Assembly (NCBI GenBank): GCA_021373175.1
Contig: JAJFTE010000144.1
Span: 1 to 35,354 of the forward strand
Direction of reading: 5' to 3'
DNA: 35,354 nt
DNA from: Actinomycetes bacterium
GTDB lineage: Bacteria > Actinomycetota > Coriobacteriia > Anaerosomatales > Anaerosomataceae
Part shown: one piece after another, positions 27,594 to 29,626 of the stretch
Position numbering within the stretch: the first letter of the stretch is position 1
Layout: every line of letters begins with the position of its first letter
Position numbers and translations under genes: made by a program
The notes under the pieces: model-generated
The model's database searches: none
What the model was told of the DNA's origin: nothing
Seen by the model: the letters and a program-made list of their open reading frames with translations, nothing else

Positions 27594-27616
27594 GGCGTAT
27601 CGCACGATGATACGCC
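27594..27616. promoter_or_regulatory. 23-base palindromic operator before the MFS gene
   Basis: GGCGTATC (27594-27601) and GATACGCC (27609-27616) form a perfect inverted repeat with a seven-base spacer. It is 14 bases before the MFS start, next to its ribosome site, and in the divergent promoter region. It looks like a dimeric repressor site. Its half-sites differ from the TGAAC type site at the regulator gene. Confidence 0.5.
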
Positions 27617-27639
27617 TGCGAGGCGCTCGGTGGACGGGG

Positions 27640-27690
27640 TTGCTTCCATGGCGAACGCTCGGTACGATGCAACGTATGAACATACGCTCA
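27640..27690 (+). promoter_or_regulatory. Promoter and possible autoregulatory site of the SmtB-type regulator
   Basis: TTGCTT (27640-27645), 17 bases, TACGAT (27663-27668), then exactly seven bases to ATG 27676: a sigma-70-like promoter with a leaderless start. TGAAC-ATAC-GCTCA at 27677-27690 is an imperfect inverted repeat close to the TGAAC/GTTCA half-sites of SmtB/ArsR regulators and overlaps the first codons. Confidence 0.45.
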
Positions 27691-28068
27691 GATGAACCAA
27701 GCATTGACGACGGTTGCTGCCGGGTGTCCGAGCACCACCGTTCCGCGGTTGAAAGCGCGCTGGCGCAGCTGCCCGACACCGGACGTTTGAAGCGCGCGAG
27801 CGACGTCCTGGGAGCGTTCGGCGATCCGACTCGCTTGCGTATCGTACTCGCGCTGACTGTGTGTGAGCTGTGCGTGTGCGATCTTGCGGTGGTGGCCAAG
27901 GTGAGCGAGTCCGCCGTCTCTCACCAGCTGCGGTTGCTGCGGAACCTGGATCTTGTCGCGTTCCGGCGCGACGGCAAGCGAGCCGTCTATCGACTCGCCG
28001 ACGATCATGTTCGCGTTCTGCTGGAGCAAGCGCTCAGCCACGCCGGAGAAAGCGAAGGGGCAAAGTGA
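27676..28068 (+). CDS. SmtB/ArsR-family metal-sensing repressor
   Basis: 130 residues. The winged-helix core reads VLGAFGDPTRLRIVLAL, then ELCVCDLAVVAKVSESAVSH as the recognition helix region. Two metal sites are suggested: the CVC in ELCVCDL (alpha-3 site) and the C-terminal DDHVRVLLEQALSHAGE, which matches the alpha-5 zinc site of SmtB (Asp, His, His, Glu). An N-terminal CC is a possible extra ligand. Such repressors release DNA on Zn, Cd or Pb binding. It is translationally coupled (GTGA) to a metal P-type ATPase gene, its likely target. The start at 27676 fits the leaderless promoter; an in-frame ATG nine bases upstream is possible. Confidence 0.88.
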   Translation: MNIRSDEPSIDDGCCRVSEHHRSAVESALAQLPDTGRLKRASDVLGAFGDPTRLRIVLALTVCELCVCDLAVVAKVSESAVSHQLRLLRNLDLVAFRRDGKRAVYRLADDHVRVLLEQALSHAGESEGAK

Positions 28069-29626
28069 GCGAGTCGCTTGCTTCCATAACCGCCACCTAC
28101 CGGCTGAGCGGGCTCGATTGACCCGACTGTGCGCGCGCCGTTGGCGTGTCCGTTGCGGGGATCCCGGGAGTCTTGAGCGCGGACGTCAACTTCGCGAGCG
28201 GTCTTCTGACGGTCGATTACGACCCCAGGGCCGACCCGCGCAGCGCGGTGGTCGCGCTCGTTCATTCGACCGGGCACGGTGTCGAGCCGCTCGACAAAGG
28301 TGCGCCGGCGGTCGCGCCTCCGTCGTGGTGGGAGGCGAACCGCACAACCGTCGCGATGGTCGCGAGCGGCGCATTCATCGCGCTCGGCTGGGCGCTGCAT
28401 GCCCTCGGCGCGCCTGTGCTGGTGGCGACCGCGCTCTACGCGCTCGCGATCGCTTCGGGCGGCGCGATAACCTGGCGTCGTGCGTTCGTGTCGGTCAAGG
28501 CGCGCATGCTCGACATGAACGTGCTCATGTCAGTCGCTGTCATCGGTGCCGCCGCCATCGGGCAATGGCAGGAGGGAGCGACCGTCATCTTCCTCTTCGC
28601 GCTCGGCGGCTGGCTTGAGTCGCGTTCGCTCGAGCGCACGCGCAGCTCGATCCGTGACCTGCTCGCGTTCGAGCCCGCACAGGCGCGCGTCGTGCGCGCA
28701 GGCCGCCAAGGCGCCCGTGCAGCAGTTCGTCGACCGCTTCTCGCGCTGGTACACGCCGACGGTGGTGGGCCTGGCCGTCAGTATCGCCATCGTGCCGCCT
28801 GTTGCAGCCGGGGTGCTCGGCGCATCGTGGGGCGGCTTTGAGTCGTGGCTCTACCGGGCGCTTGTGCTGCTCGTCATCAGCTGCCCGTGCGCACTCGTGG
28901 TCTCCACGCCGGTGGCGATCGTCTCGGCCATCACGCGGGCGTCACGCGATGGCGTGCTCGTGAAAGGCGGTGCGTTCCTGGAGACGGCTGCGAAGGTGCG
29001 CGCGATCGCGTTCGACAAGACGGGCACACTCACGCATGGCCGTCCGGCAGTCGTGGAGGTCGCTGCCGGGCCGCGGCGTCGGCGGCGTCATCGCAGGGCG
29101 CCACGTGCGCCTCATGAGTCCGGCGTTCGCTGCGGACGTCGGCCACGTGAGCGAGTTGCTCGCCCAGCGGATCGGAATCGCCGAGGAGGCCGGGCGCACC
29201 GTGCTCGTGCTGCTCGACGAGGGCGAGGCGCGCGGCTCTATCGCCGTCGCTGACGAGGTCCGCAACAGCGCTGCCGGCGTGATGGATGGGCTGCGCTCGG
29301 CGGGCATCGAACACCTGGTGATGCTCACGGGCGACAACGAGCGCACGGCGGCAGCGGTTGCGGCGGCGGGCAGCGATACCGCCGTGGAGACCGCGGATGT
29401 GGACCTCATGCGAGACGACCTGTCTGCGCTGCCGGGGTTCTTCGACCTGGGTCGGCGAACGCTCGCCAACATCCGCCAGAACGTGGCGCTCTCCATCGCC
29501 GTCAAAGGCGTTGTGCTCGCACTAGCTGTGCTCGGCAAGGCGACGTTGTGGATGGCGGTCTTCGCCGACACCGGCGTGGCGCTCATCGTCATCGCGAACG
29601 GCCTGCGGCTGCTCAGGAAGCGGTAG
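28065..29626 (+). pseudogene. Decayed P1B-type heavy-metal ATPase with an in-frame TGA in its metal motif
   Basis: Starts with a GTG in a GTGA overlap with the repressor. An N-terminal HMA domain reads YRLSGLD, TGA at 28119, PDCARAVGVSVAGIPGVL; the TGA stands where the first Cys of CxxC belongs. Then come membrane helices and FEPAQARVVRAG. At about 28702 the frame changes and the text jumps to APVQQFVDRFSRWY, so the actuator domain with its TGE motif is missing. VISCPCALVV (CPC ion motif) and AFDKTGTLTHG are intact. At about 29070 the frame changes again to GRGVGGVIAGRHV, losing most of the nucleotide domain. In the last fragment MLTGDNERTAAAVAA runs straight into AGSDTAVETADV, so GDGVNDAP is also lost. 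The product cannot be a working pump. The CPC motif and SmtB partner suggest a Zn/Cd/Pb exporter before decay. Assembly errors are an alternative. Confidence 0.85.
28119..28153 (+). other. Candidate selenocysteine UGA with bacterial SECIS-like hairpin
   Basis: UGA (28119-28121) followed by C, the context favoured at bacterial Sec codons. GCGCGCC (28133-28139) pairs with GGCGTGT (28143-28149), with two G-U pairs and a small loop GUU, extended after one mismatch by three weaker pairs. The loop begins 18 bases after the UGA, inside the 16-37 base range of bacterial SECIS rules, and starts with G. Confidence 0.45.

Follow-up and report, generated by a model that had tools for sequence, protein, structure and literature searches.

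The TGA codon and its reading frame

The window (the whole stretch of DNA that was analyzed, 35,354 nucleotides long) contains a gene for a heavy-metal pump in which the first Cys of the HMA motif is replaced by a TGA codon (GLD-U-PDC), and the question is whether this codon is read as selenocysteine (Sec) or marks a gene in decay. The source is a draft genome (G000) of 144 contigs that is 98.9% complete. In the frame that begins at GTG 28065 the sequence reads VSESLASITATYRLSGLD-TGA-PDCARAVG, the TGA being the only stop in that reading and the base directly 3' of it a C, as the initial annotation had described. The GTGA overlap with the repressor gene that it had pointed out is also there, the ArsR-family ORF stopping at TGA 28066-28068 (Table 1). 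The first in-frame ATG of arsR is at 27607, and translation may actually begin at ATG 27688. The relatives support GTG 28065 as a conserved overlap start only in part: an ArsR-like C terminus ends just upstream of the ATPase in L038, L040, and L046, but in L020 and the same-genus relatives the pump is preceded by something else, either a different sequence or an additional domain in frame. Elsewhere in the window, positions 550-2886 hold a 778-amino-acid ORF with RHS repeats (PF05593, E 7e-25).

Table 1. Features of the pump locus, in window positions
Feature	Position	Strand	Basis
ArsR-family repressor gene (HTH_5), ELCVCDL metal-site motif	27607..28068	+	ORF, profile match
ATPase segment 1: predicted Sec-HMA and first four membrane helices	28065..28695	+	HMA E 1e-11; pN/pS 0.38
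UGA codon, predicted Sec (U19) and first metal ligand of the HMA site U-P-D-C	28119..28121	+	frame and homologue comparison
bSECIS hairpin: stem 28133-28139/28143-28149 (7 bp), loop GUU 28140-28142	28133..28149	+	folding, bSECIS model
Deletion junction 1: 278 bp gone (actuator domain, TGE), frame shifted	28695..28696	.	vs L019/L020/L022/L023
ATPase segment 2, other frame: CPC helices, DKTGT phosphorylation site	28696..29068	+	E1-E2_ATPase E 3.9e-15
Deletion junction 2: 137 bp gone (nucleotide-binding domain, SNHPLA motif), frame shifted	29068..29069	.	
ATPase segment 3, third frame: remaining nucleotide-binding/HAD part, to TGDNERT	29069..29361	+	
Deletion junction 3: 162 bp gone (GDGxNDxP hinge), frame kept	29361..29362	.	
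ATPase segment 4: last helices (NIRQN...K, FADTG), original stop TAG	29362..29626	+	

A homologue of the pump is encoded in 56 of the 69 genomes of the order Anaerosomatales (Coriobacteriia), and the close ones have TGA, not TGC or TGT, at the aligned codon. Each of the 30 best matches, the window's own included, contains one TGA and no other stop along a matched stretch of ~200 codons, the context being GLD-U-PDC in all of them, with as many as 700 open codons downstream. One TGA, always as GLD-U-PDC and with ~240 to 700 open codons after it, is found in L018-L047, L131-L134, L139, L140, L143, and L150. In total, ~40 homologues of the order have a single in-frame TGA at this codon, which excludes a chance origin. 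At the same position, the sequence is GLDCPDC in homologues from Bacillota, Armatimonadota, Chloroflexota, and other Actinomycetota, although these were recovered with a peptide pattern containing Cys and the search is hence biased toward Cys forms. When 396 genomes of the phylum were searched without this bias, nearly all the homologues outside the order were free of stops, the exception being G103. On the tree, the Sec/Cys label changes at least six times, four of the changes being forced by well-supported branches, which implies repeated exchange between Sec and Cys. L139 has tandem HMA domains, the first with Sec (GLDUPDC) and the second with Cys (GLDCADC).

The machinery for Sec insertion is encoded in the genome: a tRNA-Sec gene (selC) with anticodon UCA (C124:5844-5936), selB (C124:85-1959; 377.9 bits, cut-off 242.25), selA (C63:18-1304; 585.7 bits) and, adjoining the latter, selD (C63:1857-2774, L203; 370.5 bits, over its cut-off). 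SelD has an in-frame TGA of its own (SG-U-AAKWGPGDLA), at the known Sec/Cys site of this protein, so that the genome has at least one further Sec codon. Against Sec, two genomes keep the pump TGA although searches for selA, selC, and a full selB came out empty in both, G005 (96% complete) and G025 (98%); a binning gap is the probable reason. G029 (99% complete), which lacks selA and selC, has Cys at the pump codon. Considering the sel genes, the TGA in close homologues and the hairpin that is selected at Sec sites (see below), the TGA of the pump gene almost certainly codes for Sec, as had been suggested initially.

Other readings of the codon fare badly. Were it a true stop, with the pump starting downstream and its HMA domain cut, one would use the ORF that exists from GTG 28146; this restart is very improbable and was rejected, because the frame before the TGA is conserved (a YRL-GLD motif and, in same-genus relatives, also an upstream in-frame domain) and the residue replaced by the TGA is an otherwise invariant Cys. 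A general recoding of UGA in this genome was rejected as well, since the overlapping arsR ends in UGA and the homologues have one TGA, at the motif. Finally, there is next to no chance of an ordinary TGC-to-TGA nonsense mutation in a dying gene, the alternative offered by the initial annotation; the gene copy is indeed broken, by three internal deletions downstream, but the mutation is refuted by the same TGA being fixed in ~40 homologues, most of them intact and with the hairpin conserved, and by the full Sec machinery in the genome.

Hairpins downstream of the predicted Sec codon in two pump families

The hairpin that had been noticed after the TGA was found as claimed, with seven pairs, a loop beginning with G, and 18 nt from the UGA to the loop. 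Its local minimum free energy is -10.6 to -10.7 kcal/mol, and it fits the published bSECIS model in each of its constraints (PMC13188914). A search against Rfam gave no match to a SECIS family. In GC-rich DNA such as this a single hairpin would prove little, and the weight comes from comparison. All of the 37 distinct Sec sequences form a stem of 5 to 7 bp that uses a shared 5' arm and one of two registers, exemplified by ACGCGCC-GUG-GGCGCGU (class A) and GCGGAC-CGUGGCCAA-GUCCGU (class B). In nearly all Sec sequences a GU is located at equal distance from the UGA; L031 has UU there. Variation along the hairpin is limited, most stem pairs being invariant. In class A, 92.9% of the cells are paired, and 5 of the 12 sequences show a compensatory double change between G-C and A-U at one pair. 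Class B has 100% of its cells paired, but most of its pairs are the same throughout, which leaves its covariation count weak.

Taken as a whole, the 73-nt stretch does not fold unusually compared with dinucleotide shuffles (z 0.68), and for this reason we used a synonymous-codon test instead, in which the codons over nt 13-36 were swapped for synonymous ones drawn from the usage of the same gene. Sec sites were more stable than their recodings (mean z -1.75, negative in 48 of 48, although n=48 does not count independent events, as the rows are related and include near-duplicates from two collections), whereas Cys sites were not (mean z -0.03, n=82). This supports selection on the hairpin at Sec sites and not at Cys sites.

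The same genome encodes a second, intact ZntA-like P1B-2 ATPase (C129:35741-37804; L128, L163), also with an in-frame TGA (GIT-U-LDC). It has the same architecture, the same Sec position and a strong hairpin of its own, but it is about 38 to 46% identical and is located on a separate branch of the tree (family 2). The Sec codon of this family is shared with relatives in the phylum of Desulfosporosinus. Its hairpin is of the type GGCC-A-A-GUUC-GAGAA-GAAC-G-U-GGCC, and L154-L156 have a variant with GGCG/CGCC. For family 2 the synonymous test is weak (mean z -0.99, n=11), since nt 13-36 do not span the whole hairpin. In L151, L152, L153, and L162, the family 2 pump is closely followed by a second P-type ATPase without an HMA domain, which in L153 has APC instead of the CPC motif.

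Deletions in the window copy

Comparison with the relatives L019, L020, L022, and L023 revealed that the pump gene of the window has lost three internal pieces (Table 1). With Sec at the TGA, the readable product has 258 amino acids and ends at the stop at 28839-28841, the last ~45 residues being out of frame. Of the motifs expected of a functional P1B-2 pump of the ZntA type, the TGE actuator loop, the HP motif, and the GDGxNDxP hinge are absent from the window copy and present in the relatives. CPC, DKTGT, and the Lys and Asp of the last helix are still there, over two frames, neither of which is that of the Sec-HMA domain. As written, this copy can be predicted to yield only the 258-amino-acid fragment (the Sec-HMA domain plus four helices) and no working pump, since three blocks essential for ATPase action are lost.

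The remainder of the gene is well preserved. Along 518 codons compared with L019, no stop in the ancestral frame was found besides the Sec TGA. The pN/pS values of the segments range from 0.11 to 0.38, like those of intact relatives (that of segment 1 resembles the value of L020), and their synonymous difference (pS) from the nearest relatives is ~0.48. The lack of any other lesion and the normal purifying selection in the rest of the gene indicate that the deletions are either very recent or an artifact of assembly. Both situations are compatible with Sec. We would give even chances to a real loss, in a gene that only very recently became a pseudogene or in a deletion allele at the strain level. 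The deletions removed catalytic blocks, and the intact Sec paralogue, 46% identical to L019, may cover the role of the pump, although it belongs to a different branch and may do another job; it is also odd for real decay to have left three separate deletions and not one point lesion. Errors of the draft assembly, the real gene being an intact Sec pump, are plausible too, at a little below even chances. They would account for three large, clean deletions in a gene otherwise free of lesions, in a draft of 144 contigs, and for purifying selection on all the segments at a pS near 0.48, while a decaying gene should also have small indels and stops. Against such errors, the further P-type ATPase genes that our search recovered from the genome are open, and no damage is seen in the neighboring genes (uvrB, a glycosyltransferase, an MFS transporter, an ABC1 kinase, and an acetyl-CoA-synthetase-like gene). 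Besides, the junctions are apparently at short repeats (~4 to 7 nt, by eye), as is often the case in true deletions. We searched the rest of the assembly for the missing pieces of the pump and did not find them, so their presence elsewhere in it was rejected, and this also speaks against misassembly.

Pump type, proposed role of Sec, and known systems

Intact relatives allow the type of pump to be assigned. L020 matches TIGR01525 with 585.6 bits (cut-off 346.25) and the cadmium family TIGR01512 with 510.9 bits (cut-off 313.5), the match of the truncated window protein to TIGR01525 being only partial (45.2 bits). From what is generally known of ArsR/CadC, the neighboring repressor with its ELCVCDL motif would presumably place the pump under the control of Cd/Pb/Zn or As-type ions. 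The locus is very probably a metal-regulated operon of arsR and a ZntA-type (P1B-2) pump in which the UGA at the first HMA Cys is read as Sec.

In such an operon, metal would release the ArsR repressor, and the pump mRNA would be made and read. SelB charged with Sec-tRNA-Sec would bind the hairpin, which starts 11 nt past the UGA, leading to the insertion of Sec. The resulting Sec-x-x-Cys site would consist of a selenolate and a thiolate facing the cytosol; it would probably bind a soft metal ion of the Zn/Cd/Pb/Hg class and regulate or feed the ZntA-type transport site. More tentatively, we advance one joint proposal, as a possibility that we do not consider probable: that the selenolate-thiolate site of the HMA domain is the normal P1B-2 state in Anaerosomatales, kept in two branches with several Cys exchanges, and that the SECIS hairpin shifted from one pairing register to another, inside a single stretch of codons, as the family evolved. 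If true, selenium would be used as a ligand for a soft metal and not as a redox residue. Most known Sec residues are redox-catalytic, and here Sec would be placed in the metal-binding motif of an ion pump, of which the Cys form is well studied (ZntA). As many natural Sec/Cys pairs exist within one order, the effect of selenium on metal affinity or selectivity is directly testable. It should be noted that standard gene calling will take such genes to be broken, or cut short, at the HMA domain.

The nearest solved structure to an intact relative is ZntA (PDB 4umv, E 2.8e-127). The similarity of the relative is full length, and the DCxxC of the HMA domain, CPC, and the K and D of the last helix align; the window pump differs from ZntA in the predicted Sec for the first HMA Cys and in the absence of TGE, HP, and GDGxNDxP. 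The NCBIfam family NF041115 (UxxU_metal_bind) also has Sec in the metal motif of an HMA-like domain, but it is a small stand-alone (seleno)protein, named for two Sec, and the HMA domain of the window matches it weakly (28.8 bits, far under the cut-off of 95 bits). The Sec-containing cation ATPases that the initial annotation mentioned are real and appear in published selenoprotein listings, as heavy-metal P1B ATPases (TIGR01525/COG2217; for example, ABB15669.1) (PMC13188914, PMC9312934, PMC5029168, PMC2398784), with 25 organisms and 32 genes counted in one of them (PMC5029168). Our literature search found no paper coupling Sec with Anaerosomatales. The window pump belongs to this already reported family, having a predicted Sec first in U-x-x-C of a heavy-metal P1B ATPase. 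It departs from the published members in that the window copy is deleted and in that its genome has two separate Sec branches. A further difference is the lineage, the order Anaerosomatales within Coriobacteriia, where pumps of this kind commonly have the Sec form.
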